This document shows, piece by piece, positions 6,385 to 26,546 of a DNA stretch of 34,739 bases. A program made the translations under genes and the position numbers. Numbering within the stretch: the first letter of the stretch is position 1; each line of letters starts with the position of its first letter. The notes below the pieces were generated by a model. That model was not told the origin of the DNA. It saw only the letters and a program-made list of their open reading frames with translations, and searched no databases. Source of the DNA: Actinomycetes bacterium (GTDB lineage: Bacteria; Actinomycetota; Actinomycetes; S36-B12; UBA10799); contig JAKOZM010000330.1 of the NCBI GenBank assembly GCA_029779995.1, positions 1 through 34,739 on the forward strand. The letters run 5' to 3'.

Positions 6385-6502
6385 CCGCCCATTGCGTAAC
6401 GAATCGTCCGGACCCTAGTTAACCGGCTTTACGATCCGGTAGAGTCGCGCACAGTAGCGAAGGTTGAACACTCAGTAATTGCAATGATCCGGGGGTAGTG
6501 GA

Positions 6503-8308: not shown

Positions 8309-8350
8309 CCGACGTTGTACATTGGCCGGAATGACCGGCGAGGGGGCCTT

Positions 8351-9850
8351 GTGACACTGCAGGACTATGCGACGATCCTGCGCCGTTCGTGGATCGTCAT
8401 CGTCACTGCGACAGCCGTAGGTACTCTGCTTGCGCTAGTAATGTCGGTCCTCGCAACCCCTGTTTATCAAGCCCAGGCACAGTTGTTCGTGTCGGTCAAG
8501 TCAGCAAATCAAGTGGGAGAGGCGTATTCCGGGGGGCTGTATGTGCAACAGCGAGTCCAGTCCTACGTTGTCGTGATCGACAGCCCTGCTGTCCTGGAGC
8601 CAGCTCTTGCCGAGCTTGGGTTGAACATTCCCTACCCGGACCTGGCCGCCAAGGTGTCAGCTCAGTCGCCACCCAACACGGTGCTCCTTGACGTATCCGC
8701 GACTGACCCGGATCCGGATCAAGCTGCGCGTATCGCCAATTCTGTTGCAGCGTCATATGCGACAGAGATCGCACGTCTAGAGAGCTCCTCACCAAACACA
8801 CCATCACCATCACCCACAGCAAGCCCGGACAACGACGGGCAAACCTCTGATGCGCCCGTGCAGGCGACAGTGATCAAGCCAGCACTCGCGGGAGTGAAGA
8901 TAGCTCCACGCACTGGAACAAACGTACTGATCGGTTTGATCCTCGGGCTTTTCGTCGGTGTCGCCATTGCCATCCTCAGGCACACGTTAGACACAACAAT
9001 CAAGACTGCCGAGGAAGCAGAGCAAGCGGCGGGGGCGACAGTGCTCGGAGCCGTCGCCCACGATCCTGAAGCCCAATCCAATCCCCTGATAACGCTGCGG
9101 GACTCTCCGCGTGCCGAGGCATTCCGAACGATCCGCACGAATCTGCAGTACGTAGACGTCGACAACCCACCCAAGGCTGTCGTAATCACCTCATCCATGC
9201 CTGGCGAGGGCAAGAGCACGACCGCCTGCAACCTTGCTATCGCCATTGCTCAAGGGGGCGCCAGAGTGCTCCTGATGGAAGCCGACCTGCGACGGCCGAA
9301 GGTCGCTGAGTACCTCCAGGTCGATGGCTCCCGAGGCCTAACGGACGTGCTAGTCGGACGTATGCCCTTGCCACGCTCGGTAATCCGATGGCAGCGCGGA
9401 TTGCTGGACCTGCTCCCAGCGGGAAGCATTCCGCCCAATCCCAGTGAGTTGTTGGGGTCTCGACACATGGCAGCAGTCTTGTCCCAGCTGCGAACACGGT
9501 ACGACATGATCATTATCGATGCGCCTCCTCTCCTACCCATTACTGACGCGGCGATATTGTCAACAGTTGTTGACGGCGCCATCCTGGTCGCTCGATACGG
9601 GGTGACGCGGCGCGATCAACTGATCGAGGCTGCTGAGGCGCTCAATCAGGTCAACTCCAGAGTCCTGGGAACAGTGATTAATTTCGTGCCCTTGCGCAGG
9701 GGTCGACGATATGGATACGAATATGGATACGGATACGGCCCCCCTTCGAACAGGCCAGAGCAGGTTGCCAGCACTCGACCACCCAGAGCGCTTCCGGTTG
9801 GTCAAGTGCAAGCCGTCCCGCCGATAGGCCCGCATCAACCTCGGATGTGA
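8351..9850 (+). CDS. Polysaccharide co-polymerase with bacterial tyrosine kinase domain (Wzz-Wzc type)
   Basis: I choose the GTG at 8351 (GAGGGGG lies 5 bases upstream; the frame is open from 8315), giving 499 residues. Order of parts: Wzz domain with TM1 near residues 12-35; an extracytoplasmic region ending in a Ser/Pro/Thr-rich linker (about residues 138-155); TM2 near residues 195-215; a BY-kinase domain with Walker A SSMPGEGKST (Lys288), Walker A' EADLRRP (Asp312) and Walker B MIIIDAPP (Asp390); and a C-terminal tail with Tyr at 454, 456, 458, 460 and 462. The family controls the chain length of Wzy-made polysaccharides by cycles of tail autophosphorylation. The partial phosphatase at the right end of the window is a natural partner. 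It lies 42 bases after the dehydratase gene, probably in one operon. Confidence 0.92.
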   Translation: MTLQDYATILRRSWIVIVTATAVGTLLALVMSVLATPVYQAQAQLFVSVKSANQVGEAYSGGLYVQQRVQSYVVVIDSPAVLEPALAELGLNIPYPDLAAKVSAQSPPNTVLLDVSATDPDPDQAARIANSVAASYATEIARLESSSPNTPSPSPTASPDNDGQTSDAPVQATVIKPALAGVKIAPRTGTNVLIGLILGLFVGVAIAILRHTLDTTIKTAEEAEQAAGATVLGAVAHDPEAQSNPLITLRDSPRAEAFRTIRTNLQYVDVDNPPKAVVITSSMPGEGKSTTACNLAIAIAQGGARVLLMEADLRRPKVAEYLQVDGSRGLTDVLVGRMPLPRSVIRWQRGLLDLLPAGSIPPNPSELLGSRHMAAVLSQLRTRYDMIIIDAPPLLPITDAAILSTVVDGAILVARYGVTRRDQLIEAAEALNQVNSRVLGTVINFVPLRRGRRYGYEYGYGYGPPSNRPEQVASTRPPRALPVGQVQAVPPIGPHQPRM

Positions 9851-9902
9851 TCAGCAGTTCGATAGACAACGACTCTGGCTCCCGCTTAATGCATTTGGTT
9901 TC

Positions 9903-10529
9903 TGGCAGCGGACGATGGCCGGCGGCCTGCGAAAGGAGACTGGACAACGGCTTGATCGCGCAATTGTCGCCGACATCTATGGGCTAGGGATCTATGAAGC
10001 TCGCGATGGCCAAGTTGAAGCAAGTAAGCGATTCCGGAAAACTGCGACCGGTCAACTAGGACGGTCATCGCTGCTCCGACGCTTCAACCAATGGGTGAAG
10101 CGCTGGGGCAAGCGCTGGCGGGTGGCCGAGTAGTCAGTGGATCGTTAATCCAGCAGTGCAAGCGGATTTGGTGGAACTTGATGTTGCCGGAATTTCTGAA
10201 TGCTCCTGAGGGCCACCCGGTCCAGTTCGTCACAGTCAATGGCTCGGGGTCCAAACTCGATGACTACCTGAATTGGGATGTGACTTATGCCGTTGGCCGC
10301 TGCCCCAAGAGGTTTGGCTGCGTGCATCCACCTGTTGTCGACATCTGCATGGTCAACCTGCGCAGAGATGTGCCGGTGGGCCTTAAGCCCCCTGACTGCA
10401 TCAAGGGATCTGGAAGGCAGACGCCCGGCGTCCCTACAACTTGGCATTGGCTCAACTCTGTTTACCGAGAGGGCAGAGGTGGAGAATTTCGCACTGAACG
10501 GTCGCAATCGGCCTATTTCGAGTTCACGG
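9903..10529 (+). pseudogene. Decayed DUF4012 gene remnant, 3' end cut by IS21
   Basis: Read in changing frames this stretch matches residues of about 300-560 of the intact DUF4012 protein at 879-2630. In order: TGQRLDRAI (intact: TGETLDGAI), GLGIYE (NIGIYE), then in another frame MGEALGQ (identical), GSKLDDYL (GSKLDAYL), VGRCP (identical), RRDVPVGLKPP (RSDVPLGERPP), then after another shift FTERAEVENFALNGRN (LPNGARVQNATINGKA), and YFEFTV just before the IS. At least two frameshifts, in-frame stops and a deletion of about 30 codons between TGQRLD and GIYE show that it is dead. The N-terminal half is absent and the last 20 or so codons are missing at the IS21 boundary; I could not find them on the other side. 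It lies directly after the Wzz/BY-kinase gene, suggesting that a DUF4012 gene was once part of this operon. Confidence 0.8.
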
Positions 10530-10549
10530 TGTCAAGGGACATTGGTTTC

Positions 10550-10640
10550 TGCCCAGTGGCGGACGGGAAACCTGCCCGGTGGCGGTCACGAGTTTTGCCC
10601 GGTGATGGCCATGGGTTCTGCACGGTGGGGGCCATCACGG
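10550..10640 (-). repeat. IS21 terminal repeat array, left (istB side)
   Basis: Four units begin at 10550, 10573, 10596 and 10619, a strict 23-bp period. Units 2 and 3 start TGCCCGGTGGCGGTCA and TGCCCGGTGATGGCCA; the fourth starts TGCACGGTGG. The array reaches to 7 bases before the istB stop codon. These are the likely binding sites for the IstA transposase. Confidence 0.8.
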
Positions 10641-10646
10641 TCGGGG

Positions 10647-11441
10647 CTATGGCAGGGGCATCACTCCTTTGCCGGCGAGGGCTTGGGTGAGTCGGACGCT
10701 GTCGCCGCTGGTTTGGCAGACGTGGGCGTGGTGTAGTAGCCGGTCGACGGTGGCGGTGGCCAACGTCTTTGGCATGAGTTCGTCGAAGCCTGAGGGGTGC
10801 AGGTTCGAGCTGATCGCGACCGAGCGTTTTTCGTAGGCGGCGTCGACCAGGCGGTAGAGGCCTTCGGCGGCGTCGTTGGCTACCGGCAGCAGCCCAATGT
10901 CGTCGACCACGATGAGTTCGGCTTTGAGCAGCCGGGTGATGGCTTTGGCCACGGTGTCGTCGGCACGGTGGCGGCGTAGCAGCACCCCGAGGTCTTCCAG
11001 GCGTAGCCAGGCCACGTGCAGACCGGCCTGCACGGCCTGCTGGCCGAGGGCTTCGAGCAGGAACGTCTTACCGGTGCCCGACGGCCCGCAGACGACCAGG
11101 TTCTCCCGGCGGTGCACCCATTCCAGGGTGCGCAACGCCTGCTGCGTGGCAGTCGGGATGGAACTGGCGTCGGGGTTCCAGGCGTCGAAGGTTTTGCCGG
11201 TGGGGAACCCTGCCGCGGCGCGGCGGGTGGCCAGCGCGGAGCGTTCCCGGCCGGTGACTTCCTCGACCAGCAGTACCCGCAGCACCTCGGCGGGGTCCCA
11301 GCGTTGGGCTTTCGCGGTGGCCAGCACCTCGGGTGCCGCCTTGCGCATGTGAGGCAGGCGCATCCGCCGTAGCAGCGCGAGCAGATCGGCGGGCAGTACC
11401 GGGGCCGGCCCACCGATCTCCGGTGTCGTGGTGGTGATCAT
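10647..11441 (-). CDS. istB: IstB, ATP-binding helper of IS21 transposition
   Basis: Start ATG at 11441 with an excellent AGGAGG about 8 bases upstream; the open frame extends further but upstream codons belong to istA in another frame. The 264-residue protein begins MITTTTPEIGG and has an IstB-type AAA+ domain with Walker A GPSGTGKT and Walker B ELIVVDDIGLLP, followed by SSNLHP, a sensor-1-like motif, and the conserved DRLLHHAHV. IstB stimulates the DDE transposase IstA and influences target choice. Its ATG overlaps the istA TGA by the ATGA motif at 11438-11441, so expression is coupled. The gene appears intact. Confidence 0.93.
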   Translation of the reverse strand: MITTTTPEIGGPAPVLPADLLALLRRMRLPHMRKAAPEVLATAKAQRWDPAEVLRVLLVEEVTGRERSALATRRAAAGFPTGKTFDAWNPDASSIPTATQQALRTLEWVHRRENLVVCGPSGTGKTFLLEALGQQAVQAGLHVAWLRLEDLGVLLRRHRADDTVAKAITRLLKAELIVVDDIGLLPVANDAAEGLYRLVDAAYEKRSVAISSNLHPSGFDELMPKTLATATVDRLLHHAHVCQTSGDSVRLTQALAGKGVMPLP

Positions 11442-12968
11442 GACGACACCTCCTCGTGGCCACCGGTGGTGGTGCCGAGGGCGGCCCAGGCGGTGGTGCC
11501 CTGGGTCAGGCTGGCCTGCTCGCTGGCGGCGTGGCTCCCAGCACCGGGCCTGGTGGCCCGGTGGTCCAGGATCGAGGCCAGATCGGTCTCGGCGAACCGG
11601 CCGTGCACCGCGGCGTGCCCGAGCGCGGCATCGACCTCGGCGGCGCCGAACAGCCTGGCCAGTTGCACCGCCTGGTCCATCTTCACCCGGATCCGGGTAG
11701 TGCCTGCCTCGGCGGCCTCGGTCAACCACAGACCGGCACCCGGGCCGATGGCCAGGAACGCCAGCTCCGCGGCGTCACGCGGGCGTGGCCTGCGGTCCAA
11801 AGCTCCTTCGGGTGCGGGCGGGAAATGCGCGTCGTCGATGCGGGGGCTGCCCGGTGTCGCGCGCAGATGCCGGGCCACCTCGATCGGGCCATGGGCGCCG
11901 ACGTGAGTGATCACGACCTGCTCACCGTCCCCGGCGCCGTGCACCCGTACCCAGACCGTCTGGCCGAGCAGCTGGTGGGGCACCGAGTACTGCCCGGACT
12001 CGAAGCTGACCATCGCCGGTGTTGGCAGGCACCCTGCGGGTGGTGCCGTAGCCGGCGGTGAACACCACCTCGGGTAGCCGGTGCAGACGATGCGCCTCCT
12101 CGGCGAGCATGTCCACCGGGCGGCGTCGGGTGACCCGATGCACCCGGGTGTTCACCTGCTCGCAGAACGAGGCGCAGGCCGCCTCCAACGCCGCGAACGA
12201 CCCATACTGCTCGAGCAGGTTCGCGTCGGTAGGCACCAGGTCGGCCTTGGCCAGTTTCACCGTCGACTCGGTGCCACCTTTACTGGCCGGGTCGGCCGGC
12301 ACACACGTTTTGATGGCCACCGAGTAGTGCCCGGCGAACGCCAGCATCGCCCGGTTACGCACCGGGATCCCCGCGACGTGCTCAACGGTGACGGTCTTCT
12401 CGTTATCGGTCAGCACATACGTCGGTGCCCCACCCAGGCGGCGCAGTGTCACGTCCAGGGCGGCGAACACGCTCGGCAACGTTTTGTCCCGCAGCGGCAG
12501 CACCACCCGAAACCTGGACCAGGCCAGCCACGCGCAGAACAACACCGTCTTCACCCCGTCGATGACCGGGCCGTCCCCGAAGTCGTACTGCAGCCACAAC
12601 CCCGGCTCGGTGACCCACGGCCGGTGCACCCGCACCCGCCCCAACCGGTAGGCCGCCTTCACGCTCGCCACGGCCCGGCGGGTCGTGCGCTCCGACCCGG
12701 TGAACCCCAACCCGAGCAGTTTGTCGTGCACCCGATCGGCGCGGATCTTGCCTTCCGAGTTCTGCACCCAGGCCTCCACCTGCGGCAGAAACCCGTCCAT
12801 CAGCATCGGCCGCACGATCCCCGCCCGGCCCACCTGGCCGGCGTCCCGGCGGGCCACATACGCGGCCACCGTGTGATGCGAACACCCCGCCAACTCCGCG
12901 GCATCTCGAAACGACCCTGTCAGGTCATACGCTTCCAAAACTTCCATGATCTCCTCGGCAGACTTCAC
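11438..12968 (-). pseudogene. istA: IstA transposase of IS21, frameshifted
   Basis: The best start is GTG at 12968 (VKSAEEIMEVLEAY) with GAGGAGGG 5 bases upstream. The N-terminal part has a helix-turn-helix (AAELAGCSHHTVAAYVARRD), then the integrase-like DDE core: LQYDFGDGP with the first Asp, TYVLTDNEKTV with the second Asp, and ASKGGTESTVKLAK with the Glu. The reading frame passes from GYGTTRRVPANTG into nonsense at about 12005-12012, while the family's expected continuation MVSFESGQYSVPHQLLGQTV is in the next frame up to the stop at 11438. One extra base in the stretch around 12009 explains this. It may be an inactivating mutation, a sequencing error or, less likely, programmed frameshifting. 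The DDE core lies before the shift; the C-terminal domain after it. Confidence 0.82.
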
Positions 12969-13067
12969 TTGTTCCCTCCTCGGGACTCGGCTCGAACGCT
13001 TCGCAACGTCCAGCCGACCCGAGGAGGGGACCCAAACCACGCAAGGTCAGGTCAACGAAAGATGTGT

Positions 13068-13141
13068 CGTGCACAACCCATGGCCACCACTGGGCAGTCT
13101 TGATGACCGCCAGCGGGCACTTTCATGACCGTCTACGGGTA
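13068..13141 (+). repeat. IS21 terminal repeat array, right (istA side)
   Basis: Read on the minus strand, units start at 13141 (TACCCGTAGACGGTCATGAA), 13119 (TGCCCGCTGGCGGTCATCAA), 13096 (TGCCCAGTGGTGGCCATGGG) and 13073 (TGCACG), with spacings of 22, 23 and 23. The third unit is nearly identical to the third left unit (both contain TGGCCATGGGTT followed by TGCACG), so the whole arrays are inverted copies. Confidence 0.8.
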
Positions 13142-13161
13142 GTTTGCCGTGACCGCCAACA

Positions 13162-13528
13162 GGCCGGGAAACGCCGGACGAAATGTGGCGCGGACGAAGG
13201 GCCGGGGGATGTGGCAAGTGCCGCCCGGGAAGAACTCCGAGCCACCAGTGCGAGGCCTACGCTCCCCCCACCGCCATCCCGTGCTACGAAATCTCATGAC
13301 CTCGATGCCACCGGTGCGCGACATGCCATGAGCGGAATCGGCACTTACTCACCTCATGGCTGGGGCGGCGATTCCTGAAACTCTCGCCGACGGAGCTCTA
13401 GCTCTTGAACGACGCCGCGAGCGTGACGCGGTACTAACGCCTCGGCGGTAACGTTCACCGCTGCTAGCCTGATGGCGCAGATTGCAACGATCGCCGGGCA
13501 GTTTCCGACACGAGAAGCAGGTGGTCTC
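13162..13528. other. Intergenic region after IS21, no gene seen
   Basis: These 367 bases lie between the IS21 right end and the acetyltransferase gene. The short open frames have no recognisable product. The missing 3' end of the DUF4012 remnant was sought just after 13161 in all three frames and not found. The last part, with TAGCCT at 13464-13469, may hold the promoter of the acetyltransferase gene. Confidence 0.5.
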
Positions 13529-14188
13529 ATGGGGGCTCCGACACCCATCGTCGTCTTTGGCGCGGGCGGGATGGGGCGCGAGATCGTGGTGCTGCTGCGA
13601 GACCTGGAGCGTGAGCAACCCGGCACCTGGAATCTGCTCGGTTTCGTGGACGATGCCCTGCCCAACCTGGATCGCTGCAAATCACTTGGGGTGGCCTACC
13701 TTGGCAACCGCGATGTTGTGCCGTCTCAGCTACCCCCGGGAACCCACTTCATCGCTGCGATCGGCAACGGCGACGCACGAAAGTCGGTCAGCCTGGACTT
13801 GGTCAACAGAGGATTGATCCCCGCTACGCTTGTGCACCCGTCTGCCTGGATCGGCGACTGCGTAGATGTGGGCCCCGGGTCGGTGGTGTGCGCCGGTAGC
13901 ATCCTGACGACGAACATCTCGGTCGGCGTCGGGTGCCAAGTGAACGTGTCGTGCACCATCAGTCACGACGTCGTCATGGGTGACTTCGTGACTCTGTCCC
14001 CTGCTGTCAACCTCACTGGCGCTGTCACTGTCGGGGACCTCGCCACCATCTACACCCGAGCATCTGTGAATCCCGCCATTCATGTGGGGGCTAAGGCGAT
14101 CGTGGGCGCGGGCGCCGTTGTGGTGACATCAGTATCTGCAGGAGAGACGGTGGTGGGCGTGCCAGCTCGCCCGTTCGCCAGAGGCTAG
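13529..14188 (+). CDS. Sugar N-acyltransferase, NeuD/PglD family
   Basis: The ATG at 13529 (GCAGGTGG upstream) gives 219 residues; the frame is open from 13472 but those codons do not fit the family. The N-terminal nucleotide-sugar binding Rossmann domain starts IVVFGAGGMGREIV, and the C-terminal half is a left-handed beta-helix of hexapeptide repeats (from about residue 100). His146 in TISHDVVMGD matches the catalytic His of PglD, which acetylates the 4-amino group of UDP-4-amino sugars. The substrate would come from the dehydratase (6503-8308) and aminotransferase (14832-15953). The gene is convergent with the phosphoglycosyl transferase, and the two stop codons share the palindrome CTAG at 14185-14188. 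Confidence 0.88.
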   Translation: MGAPTPIVVFGAGGMGREIVVLLRDLEREQPGTWNLLGFVDDALPNLDRCKSLGVAYLGNRDVVPSQLPPGTHFIAAIGNGDARKSVSLDLVNRGLIPATLVHPSAWIGDCVDVGPGSVVCAGSILTTNISVGVGCQVNVSCTISHDVVMGDFVTLSPAVNLTGAVTVGDLATIYTRASVNPAIHVGAKAIVGAGAVVVTSVSAGETVVGVPARPFARG

Positions 14189-14835
14189 GAGAACTGACCC
14201 GCTTCAGTCCCGGTGAACTCCGGCGCCGTGGCATGGCCATCGGCGCTGACCCCAGATCGTCTCAGAACAACTCTCAATGTGCGGAGAAGGATCTTGACGT
14301 CTAACCAGAACCCCACGTTGTCGACGTACCAGGTATCCATGGCCAGCTTCCCCTGCCAATCGGCGGCGTTCCGGCCGTTCACCTGGGCCCAGCCCGTCAG
14401 GCCGGGTCGGACTTCGTGACGGCGGGCTTGCTCAGGGCTATAGAGGAGCAGATACTTGGTCAGCAGAGGCCTTGGGCCAACCAGACTCATGTCCCCTTTG
14501 ATCACGTTCCACAGCTCCGGCAACTCGTCGAGGCTAGTCGATCGGAGCCATCGACCGAATCGGGTCAGTCTCAGTTCGTCCGCCAGCAGAACGCCGTCAG
14601 AATCGGTCCGATTTGCCATTGTCCGGAACTTGATGAGCATGAAAGGCTGCCCGTCGAGCCCGGGCCGCTCATGACGAAAAAGCAATGGCCTCCCCAGTTG
14701 TTTCCGGACGCAGGCAGCCACGGTCACCTGGACAGGGATGGAGACAAGCCCCATGAGGCTAGCCGCGACAAAGTCGATGAAGCGCTTACCATGGCTTTGG
14801 TAGAAACCGGGGAACCGTTTGTCGAACTGCGTCAT
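14185..14835 (-). CDS. Small phosphoglycosyl transferase (PglC-like initiating sugar transferase)
   Basis: 216 residues, close to the roughly 200 of PglC and much shorter than WcaJ/WbaP, so it is the minimal monotopic form. Residues 17-43 carry the amphipathic, membrane-dipping helix (RFIDFVAASLMGLVSIPVQV), then the signature RHERPGLDGQPF, KFRTM, the catalytic Asp103-Glu104 pair in SLDELPELWN, the GDMSLVGPRP block and RPGLTGWAQVNGRN. The family moves a sugar-1-phosphate from UDP-sugar to undecaprenyl phosphate on the cytoplasmic face, starting a lipid-linked glycan. Given its neighbours the sugar is likely a diacetamido-trideoxyhexose. Its ATG overlaps the aminotransferase stop (ATGA at 14832-14835). 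Confidence 0.92.
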   Translation of the reverse strand: MTQFDKRFPGFYQSHGKRFIDFVAASLMGLVSIPVQVTVAACVRKQLGRPLLFRHERPGLDGQPFMLIKFRTMANRTDSDGVLLADELRLTRFGRWLRSTSLDELPELWNVIKGDMSLVGPRPLLTKYLLLYSPEQARRHEVRPGLTGWAQVNGRNAADWQGKLAMDTWYVDNVGFWLDVKILLRTLRVVLRRSGVSADGHATAPEFTGTEAGQFS

Positions 14836-15953
14836 TTCACTGTGGCCTTGATGCCGTCCGCGACCCTCTCGACGTCCTCATCACGCAGGCCCACACCGCT
14901 GGGCAGGCACAGACCCTCTTCGAACAGTCGGTCCGCGACACCCGTCAGGTGCGCCTCACGGTCAGCGAACACCGGCTGCTGATGCATGGGCTTCCAGATC
15001 GGTCGCGACTCGATATTTTGCGCTTCGAGTGTCTCCCTAACCTGTACCGCGGCCCCGGGCAGGACCGTCTCGTCGAACGTCAACGTGGTGAGCCATGAGT
15101 TGCCCGTGGCCCATGGGGGGTCCTGTGTCACGTGCACCCCTGCCAAGCCACCCAGCAAATCCATGTACATCTCCCGAATCTGCCGCCGTCGACCGATCAT
15201 CTCCGGAAGCCGAGACAGTTGCGCTCGGCCGAGTGCTGCCAGAATGCCGCTGAGCCTATAATTGTATCCAATCGCCTCATGCTCATACCAGGGGTACGGC
15301 TCCCTGGATTGTGTCGACCAGAAGCGTGCCTTGCGCGCGATGGCCTCGTCGTCAGATACCAACATTCCGCCACCAGAAGTGGTCATGATCTTGTTTCCGT
15401 TGAACGAGTAGATGCCCGCTTGGCCCATCGTGCCGGCAGACTGGGAACCGTGAGTGGCGCCGAGAGACTCGGCCGCATCTACCAGGACGGGGATGTCATA
15501 CCGCGCGGCGATGGGCAAAATCTGGTCATAGTCGGCCGGGCGACCAAACAGGTCGACGGCGATGATCGCAGCCACACGCCCAGATCGCCCGGCCAAGACC
15601 GACTCCAGAAGCTCAGGGTCCAAGCCCCACGACTGATCCTCAACGTCCAGGAACACCGGCGTCGCGCCTGTGTAGGTCACGGCGAAGGCGGTCGCTCCGA
15701 ACGTGAGTGTGGGCACGATGACGTCGTCACCCGGTGCAACCCCCAGAGCCATAAGTGCCAGGTGTATGGCTGCCGTGCCTGAGGACAGAGCCACCGCATG
15801 TTGTGCTCCCGTGTATGCGCAGATGTCAGCCTCAAAGCCATCAACCTCTGGCCCCACGGGCGCGACCCAGCCAGATGTGACGGCCCTGGTCAACGCCTCT
15901 ACCTCGAGCTCTGTCACGTGCGCTTGAGAGAGCCGCACCACTTGCTTCGTCAT
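14832..15953 (-). CDS. PLP-dependent sugar aminotransferase (DegT/DnrJ/EryC1/StrS, PglE-like)
   Basis: The ATG at 15953 with GGAAAGG about 7 bases upstream gives 373 residues (the frame is open to 15977). Family landmarks: ALSSGTAAIHLAL, VIVPTLTFGATA, LVDAAESLGATH (Asp binding the PLP ring nitrogen) and YSFNGNKIMTTSGGGM, where Lys188 should bind PLP. The motif GNKIMTTSGGG and the GYNYRLSGILAALGRAQL block are typical of PglE-type 4-aminotransferases that act on UDP-4-keto-6-deoxy-GlcNAc. It is followed with a 4-base overlap by the phosphoglycosyl transferase. A different 3- or 4-keto sugar substrate cannot be excluded, since a second enzyme of the same family is encoded at 27557-28642. Confidence 0.9.
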   Translation of the reverse strand: MTKQVVRLSQAHVTELEVEALTRAVTSGWVAPVGPEVDGFEADICAYTGAQHAVALSSGTAAIHLALMALGVAPGDDVIVPTLTFGATAFAVTYTGATPVFLDVEDQSWGLDPELLESVLAGRSGRVAAIIAVDLFGRPADYDQILPIAARYDIPVLVDAAESLGATHGSQSAGTMGQAGIYSFNGNKIMTTSGGGMLVSDDEAIARKARFWSTQSREPYPWYEHEAIGYNYRLSGILAALGRAQLSRLPEMIGRRRQIREMYMDLLGGLAGVHVTQDPPWATGNSWLTTLTFDETVLPGAAVQVRETLEAQNIESRPIWKPMHQQPVFADREAHLTGVADRLFEEGLCLPSGVGLRDEDVERVADGIKATVK

Positions 15954-16130
15954 GGGCCAACCTTTCCGGTGCACCATGTTAGAGGGCCCGAGTTGCGCGC
16001 CGCTTACGCCTGCCAGACACGAGTGTCACGGTTCTGCCTGGAAGTCGCCATGCTAACCTTGGGTGAGTGCCAATCGTCACCGACGGGCCGCGCCCGGGGG
16101 GACCAATAACAGAGCGGTCGAAACAGCGCC
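15954..16130. promoter_or_regulatory. Divergent promoter region
   Basis: 177 bases separate the divergent aminotransferase and amidotransferase genes, so promoters for both operons must lie here. TGCTAACCT at 16050-16058 resembles an extended -10 element for the plus strand. No convincing -35 partner or operator was seen. Confidence 0.4.
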
Positions 16131-17942
16131 ATGTGTGGAATTTTCGGAATCATCTCTGATTCACCCGTCAACCGCCCAGATCTGGACTCACTCGCCAAAC
16201 ATGCGGAGCAACGCGGCCGTGACTCTAGCGGCCTTCTACTGCTCAAGAATGGGCGATACGAGATCAAGAGGGCGGACTACCGCATCCCTCGCCTGCTGAA
16301 GGAAGTCAAGCCGTTTACCAGTCACTTGGTGATCGGCCACAGTCGTCTGATCACTAACGGGCTCACGGACAACCAGCCCGTTATCTACGAGGACGTGGCG
16401 GTCCTGCACAACGGCATCATTGTCAACACCGACGCGATCTGGGATCAGATTGACAAACCGCGCAAGTTGGAGATTGATTCGGAAGTCATCGCTGCTCTGG
16501 CAAGTGATCACATTGACAAGGGTGGCGCTCTGGAAGGCCTGCCCGCTCGGGTCATGAAGGAATGCCAAGGGGTGGTCGCGTGTGCGTTGGTGGTGCCCCG
16601 GCTGGGCAAGCTCTGTCTGTTCTCCAATAACGGGAGTCTTTACATGGGGGCGAAGGGCGGCGCCACATACTTCAGCTCTGAGCGCTTTCCGCTGGAATCG
16701 GTGGCGTGTAGTGATATCGCAGAGGTACGGGAAGGCATCATCATCGATATCCCCGCTTCGCAGGAAGACTTCGCCGTCACAGACCGAATCGAGCGTTCGA
16801 ACAACCTCATACCCGGCTTGCTCACCTCCAGCGGCGAGGAAAAACTGCTTGAGTACTCCCATCACAGCCTGCGGCGCTGCACCAAATGCCTGCTGCCAGA
16901 GACCATGCCTTACATCACCTTCGAGCCCGATGGCGTCTGCAATTACTGCCTCAACTACAAACCACGCAACCACCCGAAACCGATCGAGGAGTTAGTCGAC
17001 CTCGTGAAGCCGTATCGGCGCGCGGAGGGGCCTGATTGCATCGTGCCCCTGTCAGGCGGGCGGGACAGCTGTTTCGGTCTGCACCTCATCGTGAAGGAAC
17101 TGGGGCTGCGGCCGCTCACATTCACCTACGACTGGGGCATGATCACCGATCTGGGACGGCGAAACGTCAGCAGAATCTCAGCGGAACTCGGCGTCGAGAA
17201 CATCATCATCGCCGATGACATCGAGGCGAAACGGCAATACATCGCAATGAATCTGCGAGCGTGGCTGAAGTCGCCCAATCTCGGGATGATCAGCATTCTC
17301 ACCGCGGGGGACAAGCACTTCTTTCGTCACCTCCAGACGATTCAGCACCAGACTGGGATCGGGCTGAACCTGTGGGGCATCAACCCGCTGGAGGTCACGC
17401 ACTTCAAGGCCGGCTTCCTAGGGGTGCCGCCGGACTTCGAGGAGCAACGCGTCTACTCGCACGGCGCGATGAAGCAGCTGCGGTACCAGTCGCTACGATT
17501 CCGGGCGATGCTGGCCAGCCCCGGTTACTTCAACAGGTCCCTGTGGGACACACTCTCGGGTGAGTATTACCGGAGCTTCGCAGCCAAGTCCGACTACTTC
17601 CACATCTTCGACTACTGGCGCTGGAGTGAACAGGAAATCGATGACACCCTGCTTCAGTATGACTGGGAGCGCGCACCGGACACGAAGACGACGTGGCGCA
17701 TTGGTGACGGCACTGCGGCCTTTTACAACTACGTCTATTACACGGTCGCCGGCTTCACCGAGCACGACACCTTCCGAAGCAATCAGATTCGAGAGGGGGA
17801 CCTCACCCGGGAGGAGGCGCTCGCACTGGTGGATGAAGAGAATGCTCCGCGATACCAGAACATCAAGTGGTACCTCGACGTTCTCGGTTTCGATTTCACC
17901 GATGTCATCAATACGGTCAACCGGATCCCGCGGATGTACTAG
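16131..17942 (+). CDS. N-acetyl sugar amidotransferase fused to a class-II glutaminase (WbpG/PseA-like)
   Basis: 603 residues in two domains. Residues 1-235 are an Ntn-type class-II glutamine amidotransferase: MCGIFGIIS puts the nucleophile Cys2 at the N-terminus, with GHSRLITNG and LHNGIIVN (Asn94-Gly95) as in GlmS and asparagine synthase. Residues 245-603 match the WbpG/PseA type: two CxxC pairs (Cys250/253 and Cys270/273) likely binding zinc, then the ATP-pyrophosphatase PP-loop LSGGRDS (308-313). This family adenylates the acetamido oxygen of a sugar and replaces it with ammonia, giving acetamidino. In Pseudomonas WbpG ammonia comes from separate HisH/HisF-like proteins; here the glutaminase is built in. 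The WbpA/B/E/D-like enzymes on the facing operon would make a fitting 3-acetamido substrate. First gene of a four-gene operon. Confidence 0.88.
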   Translation: MCGIFGIISDSPVNRPDLDSLAKHAEQRGRDSSGLLLLKNGRYEIKRADYRIPRLLKEVKPFTSHLVIGHSRLITNGLTDNQPVIYEDVAVLHNGIIVNTDAIWDQIDKPRKLEIDSEVIAALASDHIDKGGALEGLPARVMKECQGVVACALVVPRLGKLCLFSNNGSLYMGAKGGATYFSSERFPLESVACSDIAEVREGIIIDIPASQEDFAVTDRIERSNNLIPGLLTSSGEEKLLEYSHHSLRRCTKCLLPETMPYITFEPDGVCNYCLNYKPRNHPKPIEELVDLVKPYRRAEGPDCIVPLSGGRDSCFGLHLIVKELGLRPLTFTYDWGMITDLGRRNVSRISAELGVENIIIADDIEAKRQYIAMNLRAWLKSPNLGMISILTAGDKHFFRHLQTIQHQTGIGLNLWGINPLEVTHFKAGFLGVPPDFEEQRVYSHGAMKQLRYQSLRFRAMLASPGYFNRSLWDTLSGEYYRSFAAKSDYFHIFDYWRWSEQEIDDTLLQYDWERAPDTKTTWRIGDGTAAFYNYVYYTVAGFTEHDTFRSNQIREGDLTREEALALVDEENAPRYQNIKWYLDVLGFDFTDVINTVNRIPRMY

Positions 17943-17947
17943 GTACC

Positions 17948-19213
17948 GTGGCTCCCTGCATCTGGTACATCTCCAAGTACGTCATCACCCCCCCAGCAGG
18001 GGAACCCGCAGGCCGCTCGTTCGGACTCATGCGCGAATTCTCCGCTCAGGGTTATCGGTCGGTGATCGTTACATCAGACTCCATGGGCAAGTTCGATGCT
18101 CCTGTGGTGGACCGGCCCTGGGTGGTGGAGGAGTATGAGGGCGTCACCATCTGTCGAGGCCGTACCCTGAAGTACTCCGACAGCAAGTCCGGCCGAAGAG
18201 TCTTGAGTTGGCTAGACTTCGAGCGCAGGCTGCTCAGCCTGCCCAAGAAGGATCTACCCGCGCCAGACGTCATCGTTGTGTCCAGCCTCTCGCTTCTCAC
18301 TGTGCTCAGTGGCTTTCGTCTGCGCCGTCGATTTGGCTGCCCCCTCGTGTTCGAAGTCCGGGATATTTGGCCCCTGACCATCGTCGCGGAGGGCGGATTC
18401 AGCGCTCGCAATCCTCTAGTCATGGCGCTGGCTTTCATCGAGCGGCTCGGTTACCGCCGCGCTGACGCGATCGTTGGCACGATGCCGAATCTCGGCGAAC
18501 ACGTCGAGAAGGTGACCGGTCGATCCCTACCGACATCCTGCATACCGATGGGGGTGGATGTGGACGCGGTCCAGACACCGGAGCCACTCCCGGACGACTA
18601 CGTTTCGGCATACATCCCACAGGATAAATTCCTCGTCGCTTACGCTGGCAGCATCGGCATCTCCAACGCGATGGACGTGTTCTTCGAATGTGCGCAGTCA
18701 ATGCAGAGCGAAGAAGACATCCACTTCGTCGTACTCGGTGATGGTGAGTTGCGCCGGGACTACTTGGCGCGATACGGAGGCCTTCCCAATGTGACCTTCG
18801 CGCCCCGCGTTCCCAAATCGCAAGTCCACGACTTCCTGACTCGGTGCGATGTACTGTTCCTCTCCGTTCACGATTCCGAAGTGTGGGACTACGGCCTGTC
18901 TCTGAACAAGCTCATCGACTACATGCTGGCAGCCAAGCCCATCGTGGCTTCGTATTCGGGCTACCCTTCCATGATCAATGAGGCCGATTGTGGGGCATTC
19001 GTACCGGCAGGTGATCCCGCAGCCCTCCAAAGGGAGGTCAAGCACTTAGCCGATCTGCCGTCCGAAGAGCGTGAGGCCATGGGGTATCGCGGACGCACAT
19101 GGCTGCTCGCAAACCGGGACTACCGGGTGCTCGCCCAGGAGTACCTGTCGCTGCTCCTGCCCCAAGACACCTCAACCGCCGTTGGAACGGAGCCAGCAGA
19201 CACATGGCAATAG
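17948..19213 (+). CDS. Glycosyltransferase family 4 (WbuB/WcaI-like)
   Basis: I start at GTG 17948, five bases after the amidotransferase stop; the frame is open from 17867 but the earlier codons lie inside that gene. The 421-residue GT-B protein begins with WYISKYVITPPAGEPAGRSF, has FEVRDIWPLTIV near residue 137 (characteristic of WbuB-like transferases), the acceptor-domain block LVAYAGSIG, and the donor-binding C-terminal part with LSLNKLIDYMLAAKPIVAS. WbuB enzymes transfer amino-sugars such as FucNAc or QuiNAc in O-antigen synthesis; here it likely adds one sugar of the repeat unit on the cytoplasmic side. The stop overlaps the next gene start by 10 bases. Confidence 0.88.
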   Translation: MAPCIWYISKYVITPPAGEPAGRSFGLMREFSAQGYRSVIVTSDSMGKFDAPVVDRPWVVEEYEGVTICRGRTLKYSDSKSGRRVLSWLDFERRLLSLPKKDLPAPDVIVVSSLSLLTVLSGFRLRRRFGCPLVFEVRDIWPLTIVAEGGFSARNPLVMALAFIERLGYRRADAIVGTMPNLGEHVEKVTGRSLPTSCIPMGVDVDAVQTPEPLPDDYVSAYIPQDKFLVAYAGSIGISNAMDVFFECAQSMQSEEDIHFVVLGDGELRRDYLARYGGLPNVTFAPRVPKSQVHDFLTRCDVLFLSVHDSEVWDYGLSLNKLIDYMLAAKPIVASYSGYPSMINEADCGAFVPAGDPAALQREVKHLADLPSEEREAMGYRGRTWLLANRDYRVLAQEYLSLLLPQDTSTAVGTEPADTWQ

Positions 19214-20364
19214 TGCTGCATCTGACACATACGAACGTCCCGACGGACGCTCGCATACTTCGGGAACTGAATGCGCTGTGGCTGCTACCGGATGTGCACG
19301 TAGAGGCCTATGGCGTTCTTGATCAGGCCGCGCCCAAGACGGCCCTGCCTTTCGGCCTGCGAGAGTTCCGGGTGAGATCGAATGATGCCCACCGACTGGC
19401 CAGAGCCGCGCGGTACGCCCTGGTCCTCATCGAGGTGAACGCTCGCTTCATCTCGCGCCTGCTTCGATTGAGACCGGATGTGGTTCACTGCCACGACACT
19501 ATGGTCCTCCCATCGGCCGTTGTGGCGAAACTGCTCCAGCGGTCCACAGTCGTCTATGACGCCCACGAGTTGGAGTCCGATAAGGCCGGCCAAAGTGCAG
19601 CTCTCTCGAAGGCCACGCTGTTGCTTGAGAAGATCAGTTGGCCACACATCGACAGACTCATCACGGTAAGCCCCTCGATCGCTGCGTGGTACGCGGATCA
19701 TTTGGGGCCGAAGCCGACCTGGTGCATCCTCAACTCGCCAGAGTTGAGCGGCGTGACGCACGCCGACCCAGCCCGGTCGAAAGTGGGCGGAGTCCGCGCG
19801 GTGCTGGGAATCGGCGACCACGAGCCCCTCTTCGTATACGTGGGCGCCCTGGAGCCTGGTCGCGGGCTCGAACTGCTAGTGGATACTTTTGCCCAGTCCA
19901 TCACTGGGTCTCACATCGTTTTCGTCGGCGCGGGCAGCCTTCGCGATGTCGTGCGGGGAGCTGCTGCCGAGCACCGCAATATCCATTACACCCCGCCCGT
20001 TCCACACGACGAGCTTGTGGCGTTCATCAAGGGCGCAACGGGGGGGTTCTGCCTTATTGAAGATGTCTCGCTGAGCGACCATCTGTGCTTACCCAACAAA
20101 CTCTTCGAATACGCGTTTGCAGGTCTGCCCGTGATCGCGTCCCGCTTGCCTGACATCCAGCGTGTCGTCGAGCAGTACCAATTGGGCCTATGCGCTGACC
20201 TCACCGCCACTTCCGTCCGCGCCGCCGTTGTTGAGTGCAATGCGAGATCCGAGAACTTGCCCCAGGAGCGACTTGAGCCGCTCAGCTGGGAACGCCAGGC
20301 GAGTGATCTACGGAGTTTGTACGCGGACATTCTGCACAGTGACGAAGTCCGGGTCCTCCGATGA
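19204..20364 (+). CDS. Glycosyltransferase family 4
   Basis: The ATG at 19204 (GGAG 11 bases upstream) gives 386 residues; the open frame from 19099 is inside the preceding gene. N-terminus VLHLTHTNVPTDARILRELN, then VVHCHDTMVL, VYDAHELES, the Rossmann-linked donor domain starting LFVYVGALEPGRGLELL, and the C-terminal KLFEYAFAGLPVIASRLPDI with a conserved Glu position for nucleotide-sugar binding. It should transfer one sugar of the repeat unit in the cytoplasm. Donor and acceptor cannot be predicted from sequence. It overlaps the genes on both sides (10 bases and ATGA at 20361-20364). Confidence 0.87.
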   Translation: MAIVLHLTHTNVPTDARILRELNALWLLPDVHVEAYGVLDQAAPKTALPFGLREFRVRSNDAHRLARAARYALVLIEVNARFISRLLRLRPDVVHCHDTMVLPSAVVAKLLQRSTVVYDAHELESDKAGQSAALSKATLLLEKISWPHIDRLITVSPSIAAWYADHLGPKPTWCILNSPELSGVTHADPARSKVGGVRAVLGIGDHEPLFVYVGALEPGRGLELLVDTFAQSITGSHIVFVGAGSLRDVVRGAAAEHRNIHYTPPVPHDELVAFIKGATGGFCLIEDVSLSDHLCLPNKLFEYAFAGLPVIASRLPDIQRVVEQYQLGLCADLTATSVRAAVVECNARSENLPQERLEPLSWERQASDLRSLYADILHSDEVRVLR

Positions 20365-22679: not shown

Positions 22680-23849
22680 TCATGGTCCCAAGACTGCATT
22701 CTGGTAGACGTTCAGCATTCGTGTGGCGAATGCTTCCGCCCCATAGTGCAGGCGGCAATACTCGCGTATCTCACCGGGGTCGAACTGAGATCTGTTCTGA
22801 TACATCTTCGACAGTGCATCCGCAAAGGCGGTCACATCGCCCACCGGAGTAAGCCTCCCCACCTCAGGGGTGACGATGTCCAGGGGACCATTGCACGCCG
22901 TCGCAAGCACAGGTACACCGACAGCCATAGCCTCGATAAGAACGACGCCGAATGACTCGCTATCGCTGGGGTGCGCGAACAAGTCCACCTCCCGTAGCAG
23001 TTCGACGATTTGCTCGCGATTCAGGTGTCCAGGCAAGTTCACTCGATCCTGACACTCCAGCGATCGAGCCAGTCGCGAGAGCCGACCGAGCTCGGGGCCA
23101 TCACCGCCTATGACCAGGCGCGCTCCTGCCGGGAGGTCCGCTCGAGCAAAGGCCTCGATAAGAAGGGCGTAATTCTTCCTGGGGAGCAGGTACCCGAGCC
23201 CTCCAACCGTGAAGGCGCCTTGCGGCTTTCCAAGGGGACAAGCAAGGAGCTGCGAATCAACAACGTTGGGGATGACTAAGACCGGGATGTGTGGACCGAT
23301 CGCCCTCTGCAGGGACGCAGCCAAATGGCTTCCAACAGCGATGATAGCTCGCGCACCGCTGGCCCCCAGCGCAAGAACCTTAGCGTCTCGCTGCGCAGCA
23401 TCCGCCTCGGCAGCGTAGGTACTGGTGTGCTCTGTCACCACGTAAGGTATGCCCGTCTCATCGTGGACATGCTTAGCCAGTAATCCTCCGGACGTCAGAT
23501 TATGTGCATGGACAACATCAGGGCGGCCAAACTTCTCGATGTAGTCTTCCAGCATGGGCCGGATTCTCCCGTAGGTTTTCGCCGCTGCATCACGTGGATC
23601 CTCCCATCTCGCAGGAAGATAGGCGCGACGGTACGCCCGATAGACGGGAACATCGTCAAGCAACTCTTTTCGATGATAGGGAAACCGGCGTCCGACAAAG
23701 CGCGTGGTGATGACTCCACCACTGAGAACTCCCAGCCGATGGCCGGCCGCTCTGAGCGCGGCTACCTGATGGCTTTCGAAGACCCCTTGGTTCGGCAGGG
23801 TGGGCACATCGTACAAGCCGCGAGGAATGACAAGCACATGCACGGTCAA
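22680..23849 (-). CDS. Glycosyltransferase family 4
   Basis: 389 residues starting MTVHVLVIPRGLY at an ATG overlapping the polymerase stop (ATGA at 23846-23849). N-domain landmarks are GVFESHQVAALRAAGH and DVVHAHNLTSGGLLA; the donor domain has VGGLGYLLPRKNYALLIEAF and the GT4 E-x7-E motif in HPSDSESFGVVLIEAMAVG. A retaining cytoplasmic GT-B transferase adding a repeat-unit sugar; the donor cannot be told from the sequence. It sits between Wzy/ligase and Wzx in the operon. Confidence 0.88.
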   Translation of the reverse strand: MTVHVLVIPRGLYDVPTLPNQGVFESHQVAALRAAGHRLGVLSGGVITTRFVGRRFPYHRKELLDDVPVYRAYRRAYLPARWEDPRDAAAKTYGRIRPMLEDYIEKFGRPDVVHAHNLTSGGLLAKHVHDETGIPYVVTEHTSTYAAEADAAQRDAKVLALGASGARAIIAVGSHLAASLQRAIGPHIPVLVIPNVVDSQLLACPLGKPQGAFTVGGLGYLLPRKNYALLIEAFARADLPAGARLVIGGDGPELGRLSRLARSLECQDRVNLPGHLNREQIVELLREVDLFAHPSDSESFGVVLIEAMAVGVPVLATACNGPLDIVTPEVGRLTPVGDVTAFADALSKMYQNRSQFDPGEIREYCRLHYGAEAFATRMLNVYQNAVLGP

Positions 23850-25228
23850 GCCTCCCCCGTGTTTAGGCCGATGCGGCTGAGACCCGCAGTCTCGGATGCT
23901 CCGAGATGAAAGCGGTCATCGGGGTTGCGGTGCAGTCCTGCCAAAACCACGGTGACCGCCAAGAACACCCCATAATGAGGAGACTCCAACACCCCACTCG
24001 ATGTGACGCCGTAGATGGTCAGGACGAGTGCCAGCGTAGCGCGGGCGAGCGACGCCTCGGGCCCCAGCCTCCGTGCGGATCTCGTGACGAAACCCCAGCT
24101 GATTCCGAGCCAGACGAAGTACAACAGCAGGGCACCAGCCACAAATATGCCCAACTCTGCTGCCAATTGGACGACCACATTGTGGTAGTTCAACGGGATG
24201 GTTCCAGAGTTCACGAGCGCATTCTCAGCCCCGATCCCACGACCCAGTCCACCCGTGTCAGCAGAGAGCCTGAAGCCCGACAGGATGAGGTCAAGGCGCG
24301 TCCCGTCGCTCTGGCTCTTCCGCACTGCCGCGAGGAGAGATCCGCCCCAGGCTGAAGCTACGATCACCACCCAGAGCGCAACCGACATCACTGCCATTCG
24401 TTGCAGGCTTCTCCTAGGAGTGAGCAGCCGGTCGAGAAGGTGCATGGTCAGGACAGCGGCGAGTCCGATTCGAAAGGCACGGGCATCGTCGAGCGCCGTA
24501 AGCGCCACTACAATACCAAGCAAGGCAAGAACCCACGCAATTGCGAGGACAATTGGGCGTAGCTTAAGGCCATAGGCGCTCCTGGAAAAGAACACCGCTA
24601 GTACGAGCAGCAGGTACCCTGCCAGGTCATTGGGATTGCCCAGAGACCCCCAGGCAACTTTCCCGATGACCTGTTCGATGTTGGCTAGATTCCACGTCTT
24701 GACATAGTCGGCAGCGAAACTCAACGTCAGGTGCTGGGCGGTCTGAAGCTCCCAAACGGCGATGCAAACCTGAAACCCACCCGAGATCAGTACACCCCAG
24801 GCAAATGCTTGGAGGGCCAACCTGTCCTGCCTGATCAAGAAGACAAGCGCCGTCGCTGAAAGCAGGGCGGCACCGATCGAGACGAAAGCCCGCAGCCCGT
24901 ACATCAGATCTGGAGTCCAGAGAAGGGTGGCAGCGGCGTACGCCATGACGATTGAGAACGCCTGTAGCAGATGGCGTGAGGGTGGAGGCAGACGCGTCCG
25001 GAGCGGGTTCAGGATGAGCCACGTCAAGGCTCCCAGAGTCACCAGCCTGACGACGTTTAGCTGATCCGGGTAGTCCGGAAACCCGGGCACATTAGGGATC
25101 AGAGTACTGAGATGCAACCCACCGGAGAGCGGCAATGTGGCGCCAAGCAACCATGCCCATCGGCGCGCTGTGGCCTGGCTCCGAGGTCGCACAGACAATG
25201 AGTCTCGGGTCGCGAGGGGCTGAGGCAT
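23846..25228 (-). CDS. O-antigen ligase/polymerase family membrane protein (Wzy-like)
   Basis: 460 residues with about 11-12 predicted membrane segments. The motif WGSLGNPNDLAGYLLLVLAV and the later YHNVVVQLAAELGIF are hallmarks of the Wzy_C (O-antigen ligase-like) family, including the conserved His-Asn in the large periplasmic-side loop. In a Gram-positive-type cell without LPS it is more likely the Wzy polymerase, joining repeat units on the outer face, or a teichuronic-acid-type polymerase such as TuaE, than a WaaL ligase. It is coded between the nucleotide-sugar enzymes and the glycosyltransferase, 7 bases after the dehydrogenase stop. Confidence 0.82.
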   Translation of the reverse strand: MPQPLATRDSLSVRPRSQATARRWAWLLGATLPLSGGLHLSTLIPNVPGFPDYPDQLNVVRLVTLGALTWLILNPLRTRLPPPSRHLLQAFSIVMAYAAATLLWTPDLMYGLRAFVSIGAALLSATALVFLIRQDRLALQAFAWGVLISGGFQVCIAVWELQTAQHLTLSFAADYVKTWNLANIEQVIGKVAWGSLGNPNDLAGYLLLVLAVFFSRSAYGLKLRPIVLAIAWVLALLGIVVALTALDDARAFRIGLAAVLTMHLLDRLLTPRRSLQRMAVMSVALWVVIVASAWGGSLLAAVRKSQSDGTRLDLILSGFRLSADTGGLGRGIGAENALVNSGTIPLNYHNVVVQLAAELGIFVAGALLLYFVWLGISWGFVTRSARRLGPEASLARATLALVLTIYGVTSSGVLESPHYGVFLAVTVVLAGLHRNPDDRFHLGASETAGLSRIGLNTGEA

Positions 25229-25235
25229 CGCGAAG

Positions 25236-26546
25236 CTAGTCGGAACTGGAGGTCGAAGCGCCGCCGAGGCCGATCAGCGATCCCCTGGAACCGCTGGGCT
25301 GCAGGAACCGCCTGCCATCCACGACGACCTTCGCAGCGGTGAGATCCCAGATGCCGTGCCCTAATTGCCGGTATTGCTCGTGATCCGCCTGAATGACCAC
25401 GGCATCAACCGGCTCGCCTAGATGGTAAGGACGCCATCCGTATTCCATCAACTCATCGTCGGAGAACATCGGGTCATGGACACTCACAGTCGCACCGCGC
25501 ACCCGCAACGCATCTAGGACCGGAAACACACCCGAAAACGCGGTCTCCTTCACTCCGCCGCGGTAGGAGGCCCCAAGCACGGCCACTCGGGCTCCGGTGA
25601 GATCCCCGTATTCCGCTTCGAGGCGTGCTATCGCATACTCCGGCATGCTTACATTCGCCTCCCGTGCGGCGGCCACGATGGTGGCATCCGGATCGTTACT
25701 CAGATACAACCGCGGGTACACCGGTATGCAATGCCCACCGACCGCGATACCCGGCTGATGGATGTGGCTGTACGGCTGGGAGTTGCACGCTTCGATCACG
25801 GCATAGACATCGATGCCGCTCTTGTCAGCAAATTTGGCGAACTGGTTGGCGAGGCCAATGTTGACGTCACGATAGGTCGTCTCCGCGAGCTTGGCCATCT
25901 CAGCAGCTTCCGCGGAGCCCAAGGGCCACACGCCATTGGATCGGGCAAGATCCGCACGCTCGTCAAATTCAAGAACGGATTCGTAGAAAGAAACGCCCCT
26001 CTTTTCAGACTCGGGGCTGATGCCTCCAACGATCTTCGGGTACTTGCGGAGGTCAGCGAAGATGCGCCCCGTGAGTACACGCTCCGGGGAGAAAACAAGA
26101 TGGAATCCGTCACCAGGAACAAGCCCTGAGTACTTCTCCAACATGGGCGCGTAGCGGGTCCGCGTGCTGCCGACGGGCAGGGTGGTCTCGTACGAGACTA
26201 GGGTTCCAGGCTGCAAACCGCGACCGATGGCGGCGGTCGCCGCATCCATCCCTACGAAGTCCGGGTGACCATCGTCGTCGACAAACAACGGCACAACGAC
26301 CACAACCGCTTCGGACTTCGATACAGCGGCGACGGTGTCAGTTGTCGCAGTGAGGAGTCCGGCTTTCACCACGTCTCGCAGTTTTTCCGATAGGTGCGCC
26401 TCGCCGGGGAACGGTTCGATTCCCCTGTTCACCAGATTCACCGTGCGTTCGTCTACATCGGCCCCCACCACTTCATGACCCATGGAGGCGAACTGAACGG
26501 CGAGCGGCAGCCCGATCTTGCCCAAAGCGACGACGCAGATCCTCAT
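25236..26546 (-). CDS. wbpA: Nucleotide-sugar 6-dehydrogenase (WbpA/WecC-like)
   Basis: 436 residues of the UDP-Glc/GlcNAc/ManNAc dehydrogenase family. The N-terminal NAD fold is RICVVALGKIGLPLAVQFA; the central domain has the helix with AEMAKLAETTYRDVNIGLAN; catalytic Cys273 lies in VGGHCIPVYPR; and the C-terminal domain contains VLGASYRGGVKETAFS. It oxidises C6 of the UDP-sugar in two steps with two NAD+. The following MocA oxidoreductase, aminotransferase and acetyltransferase make WbpA (UDP-GlcNAc to UDP-GlcNAcA) more likely than UDP-ManNAc dehydrogenase. Start overlaps the stop of the oxidoreductase gene (ATGA at 26543-26546). The symbol is assigned from pathway context. Confidence 0.87.
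   Translation of the reverse strand: MRICVVALGKIGLPLAVQFASMGHEVVGADVDERTVNLVNRGIEPFPGEAHLSEKLRDVVKAGLLTATTDTVAAVSKSEAVVVVVPLFVDDDGHPDFVGMDAATAAIGRGLQPGTLVSYETTLPVGSTRTRYAPMLEKYSGLVPGDGFHLVFSPERVLTGRIFADLRKYPKIVGGISPESEKRGVSFYESVLEFDERADLARSNGVWPLGSAEAAEMAKLAETTYRDVNIGLANQFAKFADKSGIDVYAVIEACNSQPYSHIHQPGIAVGGHCIPVYPRLYLSNDPDATIVAAAREANVSMPEYAIARLEAEYGDLTGARVAVLGASYRGGVKETAFSGVFPVLDALRVRGATVSVHDPMFSDDELMEYGWRPYHLGEPVDAVVIQADHEQYRQLGHGIWDLTAAKVVVDGRRFLQPSGSRGSLIGLGGASTSSSD

Follow-up and report, generated by a model that had tools for sequence, protein, structure and literature searches.

The known route to acetamidino groups, which alter the charge and recognition of bacterial surface polysaccharides, uses three proteins. 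A contig from an Actinomycetes bacterium (GenBank assembly GCA_029779995.1, contig JAKOZM010000330.1, positions 1–34,739, hereafter called the window) raises the question of whether a single protein could do the same work. The window carries a gene for 603 residues (positions 16131–17942, forward strand), here named FUS, in which a class II glutaminase domain is joined in frame to an N-acetyl sugar amidotransferase (NASAT) domain of the WbpG type. From its domains, residues and predicted fold, from the single tree branch shared by such fusions and from the gene neighbourhood, we infer a reaction, a substrate and an ammonia transfer that would make FUS a self-sufficient glutamine-dependent NASAT (amidine synthase) for 2,3-diacetamido-uronic acids, and we consider this its probable function.

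The fused protein and its proposed reaction

The FUS frame is open from the ATG at 16131 to the TAG at 17940–17942. Open reading frame analysis and Pfam and NCBIfam profiles divide its product into a GlmS-type class II (N-terminal nucleophile, Ntn) glutaminase domain (residues 2–207, 16134–16751) and a NASAT/WbpG-type amidotransferase domain (residues 243–603, 16857–17939). The first opens with Cys2-Gly-Ile, in which Cys2 (16134–16136) is the predicted nucleophile, and holds HNG at residues 93–95 (16407–16415; LHNG at 92–95). The second contains two CxxC pairs recognized by residue conservation, CTKC at 250 and CNYC at 270 (C250/C253 and C270/C273, 16878–16949), followed by the PP-loop SGGRDS at 308–313 (17052–17069), recognized by motif and conservation. 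The original prediction had read this same 603-residue frame, with Cys2, LHNG, both CxxC pairs and the PP-loop, and each of these features was confirmed in its place.

The sole Pfam match in FUS is GATase_7 (E 7.8e-7), while NCBIfam returns a GlmS-type match over residues 1–212 and a WbuX/NASAT match, below its cut-off, over residues 249–581. The solved structures closest in sequence are that of GlmS glutaminase for the first half and that of the Legionella NASAT (8wex) for the second. In the predicted fold, the N-terminal part is an Ntn fold (PDB 1XFF) and the C-terminal part matches LpNASAT (PDB 8WEX) over 326 residues. FUS has the SGGxDS PP-loop and the four cysteines of a NASAT, together with the N-terminal Cys, the Arg and Thr, the HNG, the Asp and the Ntn fold of a GlmS-type glutaminase, residues that have roles in the glutamine pocket of class II glutaminases. 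Both earlier domain assignments, a C-terminal domain related to WbpG/PseA and a glutaminase of GlmS rather than HisH type, are upheld by these matches, folds and pocket residues. LpNASAT has been described with SGGxDS and tetracysteine motifs and with zinc (PMC10607449), and by analogy C250/C253 and C270/C273 probably form a zinc site. Across 77 fused proteins, down to 39% identity, C2, R28, G29, R72, T75, H93, G95, D116, C250 and S308–S313 are invariant, and N94, C253, C270 and C273 are at least 90% conserved.

Given the invariant catalytic residues, Cys2 of the GlmS-type domain would hydrolyse glutamine, and the ammonia would pass within the protein to the C-terminal NASAT domain. There the PP-loop and ATP would activate an N-acetyl carbonyl, probably that of the 3-acetamido group of UDP-2,3-diacetamido-2,3-dideoxy-glucuronic or -mannuronic acid, and ammonia would replace the carbonyl oxygen to yield a 3-acetamidino sugar rather than a uronamide. 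A neighbouring GT4 glycosyltransferase would then probably add the amidino sugar to a lipid-linked first sugar.

Spread, partner proteins and origin

The idea that the fusion is rare was rejected on the number of its relatives. In a protein search (6471 matches in total, not necessarily fusions, since single-domain relatives can score), the first 120 matches listed were the query and 119 others, each sharing 70% identity or more with the query across at least 87% of its length, and FUS is therefore far beyond chance. Of 421 pattern stretches in contigs taken at one genome per species, 367 encode a relative. The best 80 of these 367, at 62–73% identity to FUS and nearly full length, are the loci for which the fused state was seen, and with the window they make up our set of 81 loci. 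The fusion was recovered as a frame in 72 of the 81 and by tblastn in all of them; two loci, L019 and L020, have 12159 of 19413 31-mers in common and are one case. Isolates among the best 80 belong to Pseudomonadota, Bacteroidota and Actinomycetota, and the phylum spread rests most safely on them, as many loci are metagenome bins whose taxon labels are possibly wrong. Sampled across the phylum, the fusion turned up infrequently, in 2 of 398 genomes at E ≤ 1e-60 (the chosen centre counted among the two), and ordinary NASAT is commoner (above cut-off in 23 of 200 genomes). Places covering 80% of FUS were found in 3 of 252 matching plasmid records and in none of nine matching phage records. Where sources name the relatives, the name is often glucosamine-6-phosphate synthetase, or hypothetical protein; relatives of the fusion are widespread and frequently mislabelled. 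There is also a second, distant fused subfamily at about 40% identity (P0157, P0121 and L129 at 10001–11965; Bordetella avium and a Solidesulfovibrio plasmid), which in the Solidesulfovibrio record adjoins AsnB genes.

The original prediction further held that the fusion works without the HisH- and HisF-like partners of WbpG. Beyond FUS, no NASAT, HisH or HisF match was found in the window. From the 80 loci we picked 20 fusion-bearing whole genomes to give a spread; NASAT and HisF2 above their cut-offs occur in the same eight (Fisher p 7.9e-6), with HisH matches beside them. The other 12 have neither NASAT nor HisF2 above cut-off, the fusion is their only NASAT-type match, and each shows exactly two HisF/HisA-type matches at E ≤ 1e-10, the number that a histidine operon by itself should give. 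At least 16 of the 81 loci contain matches to all three of NASAT, HisH and HisF (at 80 bits or more) no further than about 10 kb from the fusion, a lower bound given that L019 and L020 hold a NASAT frame missed by the reference, and a count in which HisF matches can include the histidine enzyme. Representatives of these partners were identified as WbuX (323 bits), AglZ/HisF2 (338 bits) and HisH (232 bits). Partners of the HisH2/HisF2 kind, which serve the WbpG and WbuX systems, were accordingly not found in the window, and HisF2 above cut-off is lacking in 12 of 20 genomes; such partners are present in the other eight and beside the fusion in one locus, L044, discussed below. The fusion can therefore occur without partners and also beside them; where they coexist it cannot simply replace them, and the idea that it has replaced WbpG everywhere was rejected. 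Where WbpG and HisF2 were not found (these 12 genomes, an Escherichia coli locus described below and the window as far as it reaches), the fusion would do the whole job; where they are present, it would probably act on a second residue. In the phylum sample all six genomes with HisF2 above cut-off also have NASAT above cut-off, and the converse fails, with NASAT in 23 genomes; the HisF2 cut-off therefore leaves partners of other kinds of NASAT undetected. As a separate observation, a NASAT match in genome G011 (contig C18, 4485–5483) lies within an 802-residue open frame.

In a tree of 93 NASAT domains (51 fused, 42 unfused), all fused domains fall on one side of one branch (SH-aLRT 99, one state change), a result obtained by a quick method with long unfused branches and with hand-chosen fused rows, 24 from the window and loci and 27 from another listing. 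A single fusion event therefore suffices for this sample, apart from the HisH/HisF arrangement, and the earlier notion of a separate solution agrees with this position away from the sampled HisH/HisF-served NASATs. The fused group sits at the end of a long branch (3.3 changes per column), and its sister NASATs are placed only with uncertainty. The fusion's position in the tree, weakly actinobacterial, and a wax ester synthase gene beside the window's locus may hint at an actinobacterial source.

A broader scenario is possible, although we regard it as tentative: that a single event gave a NASAT its class II glutaminase, that this one-protein amidine synthase for UDP-2,3-diacetamido-uronic acids was later passed horizontally among several phyla, often in a cassette that includes a single GT4, and that beside WbpG/HisH/HisF it makes a second amidine, differently placed or configured, in the same repeat unit. 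If true, this would imply doubly amidinated O-antigens, which are described in no paper found.

Gene neighbours, substrate and competing explanations

The most constant neighbour of the fusion is a GT4 glycosyltransferase gene, which comes immediately after it on its own strand in 50 of 81 loci including the window, where it occupies 17948–19213 (forward strand), its GTG at 17948 lying 5 nucleotides past the FUS stop (alternative start GTG 17867). A second GT4 gene, from its profile match, follows at 19099–20364 (forward). On the reverse strand lie genes for a WbpA-like nucleotide sugar 6-dehydrogenase (25236–26546), a WbpB-like Gfo/Idh 3-dehydrogenase (26543–27556), a WbpE-like DegT aminotransferase (27557–28708) and a WbpD-like hexapeptide acetyltransferase (28639–29238). 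No WbpI-like 2-epimerase was detected in the window, and because of this the gluco-configured product UDP-GlcNAc3NAmA is the natural guess. The window also encodes a PglF/WbpM-like UDP-GlcNAc 4,6-dehydratase (6503–8308, forward), a PglD/NeuD-family acetyltransferase (13472–14188, forward), a PglC-like initiating phosphoglycosyltransferase (14185–14835, reverse) and a PglE/LegC-family aminotransferase (14832–15977, reverse). Inside the polysaccharide locus lies an IS21-type element with IstB helper ATPase and IS21 transposase genes (10647–13040, reverse); a gene of the wax ester synthase/diacylglycerol acyltransferase family (31103–32521) adjoins the locus, and a DDE transposase gene (DUF772/DDE_Tnp, 32655–34268) is found near the window end. 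Three frames, 10091–10690 (199 residues), 23846–25228 (460 residues) and 29405–30730 (441 residues), had no match in Pfam at E 0.001 or in NCBIfam at the limits applied; the latter two could be polymerase or flippase candidates.

Searched with WbpD from the E. coli locus, 19 of the 20 fusion genomes give matches, 18 of them on the fusion's contig within about 33 kb of it. At E ≤ 1e-55, WbpD is present in 16 of 20 fusion genomes versus 22 of 198 phylum genomes without the fusion (p 9.9e-11), a comparison that serves as a guide rather than a strict test, the groups differing in taxonomy and the 20 genomes being hand-chosen. A WbpB query did less well, matching in 14 of 20 at E ≤ 1e-15. In eight loci (seven actinobacterial by title), a WbpA-type dehydrogenase gene lies 0.2–2.7 kb upstream of the fusion on the same strand. 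In several loci the fusion is set between a WbpI-like gene and a GT4, a layout recalling Pseudomonas aeruginosa O5, whose genes run hisH2, hisF2, wbpG, wbpH, wbpI, wbpJ and so on. As judged from sequence, the gene neighbours fit the 2,3-diacetamido-uronic acid substrate that had been proposed.

A compact example comes from E. coli. Among 5426 complete genomes, blastn found fusion DNA in two, at 64% identity (more distant copies could be missed), both chicken isolates, whose stretches (L131 and L134) are identical over 28931 bases. Their galF–gnd locus (1514–16694) holds WbpB-, TviB/WbpA-, WbpD- and WbpE-like genes, wzx, wzy, a GT4, WecB/WbpI, the fusion and another GT4, along with two frameshifted transposase genes; it has no NASAT or AsnB match and no HisH/HisF match apart from the histidine operon. 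The frameshifted ISAs1 transposase gene on the galF side carries a (CTCTG)8 array, and four or more consecutive CTCTG units were found in none of the 132 other loci compared. The E. albertii O1 locus is described with a CTCTG repeat of 11–73 copies in its 5' transposase gene and with transposases in its centre, and predicted gene functions agreed with chemical structures (PMC5622975). The E. coli array matches this marker in kind and not in exact subtype, its 8 copies being below 11–73, and such O1-type features in two E. coli chicken isolates suggest transfer between species. The same fusion is represented by an Escherichia protein, P0241, named at genus level and standing for 174 contigs. 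By the title of a paper, the E. albertii O1 O-antigen reportedly resembles P. aeruginosa O5. E. albertii is cited for ManNAc3NAcA (PMC10622841), and the PAO1 antigen of P. aeruginosa contains ManNAc3NAcA and ManNAc3NAmA (PMC8319346). If O1 has an amidino sugar, no gene of the E. coli-type locus other than the fusion is a candidate for making it.

Several observations weigh against a self-sufficient amidine synthase of this specificity. FUS scores 131 bits against TIGR03573 (N-acetyl sugar amidotransferase), short of the 203.2-bit cut-off, and fusions in the 20 genomes score 127–155 bits (100 bits over part of the model in G016). The C-terminal domain shares only 22–26% identity with plasmid-borne NASAT-like places, and domains of its type are without a Lys and a Phe found in 98% and 93%, respectively, of the 42 unfused NASATs compared. 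One fusion genome, G008, is without a WbpD match, and in G011 the match is on a contig other than the fusion's; only 7 of 20 genomes have close WbpB homologues (62–73%) in the neighbourhood of the fusion. To these are added the coexistence in eight genomes, which plain replacement leaves unexplained, and locus L044.

Some of these points would fit a different reaction, in which the fusion would act on the C6 carboxylate of a (di)acetamido-uronic acid and yield a uronamide. Uronamide formation is thought to be done by AsnB-type enzymes. The WbpA-type gene upstream of the fusion in eight loci would suit this reaction too; the two lost NASAT-conserved residues fit a changed reaction, and a different reaction would also account for the coexistence with NASAT, HisH and HisF. 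GlcNAc3NAcylAN-type uronamides occur in O-antigens that also hold acetamidino sugars (PMC3210612). We nevertheless judge this explanation unlikely.

We also doubt that the fusion makes its acetamidino group on another N-acetyl sugar, such as the 4-acetamido group of a bacillosamine-type first sugar supplied by the PglF/PglE/PglD/PglC block, which seems rather improbable. PglC-, PglD-, PglE- and PglF-like genes do follow the fusion and GT4 in many loci, and such genes are present in the window. The E. coli fusion locus, however, has no PglC-, PglD- or PglF-like match, its single acyltransferase and single aminotransferase match WbpD and WbpE best, and in another locus (L080) the WbpA-type gene is the only one of 18 other reference genes near the fusion.

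It is very improbable that the fusion is a NASAT still fed by HisH/HisF, with a spare or regulatory glutaminase half. In L044, a flavobacterial bin, HisH and HisF matches (8523–10001) immediately precede the fusion and the locus yielded no unfused NASAT, so that some fusions could still use HisH/HisF; yet 12 of 20 fusion genomes have neither HisF2 above cut-off nor an extra HisF-type match, and the glutaminase pocket residues are kept across the 77 proteins. Finally, there is next to no chance that the fusion is the glucosamine-6-phosphate synthase (GlmS) that several databases make of it: its first 210 residues do match GlmS models, but the full-length model reaches only 69.1 of 418 bits over residues 2–209, there is no sugar-isomerase domain and the C-terminal half is NASAT-like by fold, a domain content that refutes the name. 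An AsnB identity was likewise rejected on domain content, as the full-length AsnB model covers the glutaminase half only (residues 2–192, 33 of 267 bits).

Relation to known systems and meaning

Like WbpG/WbuX-type NASATs (TIGR03573; LpNASAT, 8WEX), FUS has the tetracysteine site, the PP-loop, the fold over 326 residues and loci with WbpD-like genes; unlike them, it has its own class II glutaminase, falls below the family cut-off, has lost two conserved residues and occurs without HisF2 above cut-off in 12 of 20 genomes. With the GlmS/GFAT glutaminase domain (1XFF) it has in common the Ntn fold, Cys2, R72, T75, HNG and D116, whereas the isomerase half is absent and a PP-loop domain stands in its place. 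AsnB-type amidotransferases have the same general plan, an Ntn glutaminase followed by a PP-loop domain; the PP-loop domain of FUS differs in belonging with NASAT and in having the tetracysteine site.

Another ammonia-delivery fusion was seen in locus L116 (genome G028), where a frame at 103–2616 joins a HisF2-type domain in frame to NASAT. As in FUS, an ammonia-delivery part and a NASAT share one chain; unlike FUS, this protein uses the HisF channel domain, has no glutaminase and sits among unfused NASATs in the tree. This long frame was accordingly rejected as a glutaminase fusion, and so was one in L110, which looks like a NASAT behind an upstream open stretch judged non-coding by eye.

A Sphingomonas cluster has been described with WbuX, HisF2-type and HisH genes (PMC11340318). 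We found no description of a glutaminase–NASAT fusion in titles or abstract openings, in a search outside which most subscription papers lie. The closest proposal in print concerns Tannerella forsythia Tanf_01265, a 605-residue AsnB-domain protein proposed for the acetamidino group on pseudaminic acid (PMC6120980). A one-chain class II enzyme for amidination has therefore already been suggested.

Taken together, the original prediction is partly supported, being largely right on mechanism and overstating both the replacement of partners and the rarity of the fusion. Reading these proteins as glutaminase–NASAT fusions would set right the annotation of a family that often goes under the name glucosamine-6-phosphate synthetase, and a one-protein route would offer a simple means of producing amidino sugars. 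The family would also offer a clean case in which one kind of PP-loop ligase is paired with two unrelated glutaminase types, so that ammonia delivery may be compared in otherwise similar chemistry.
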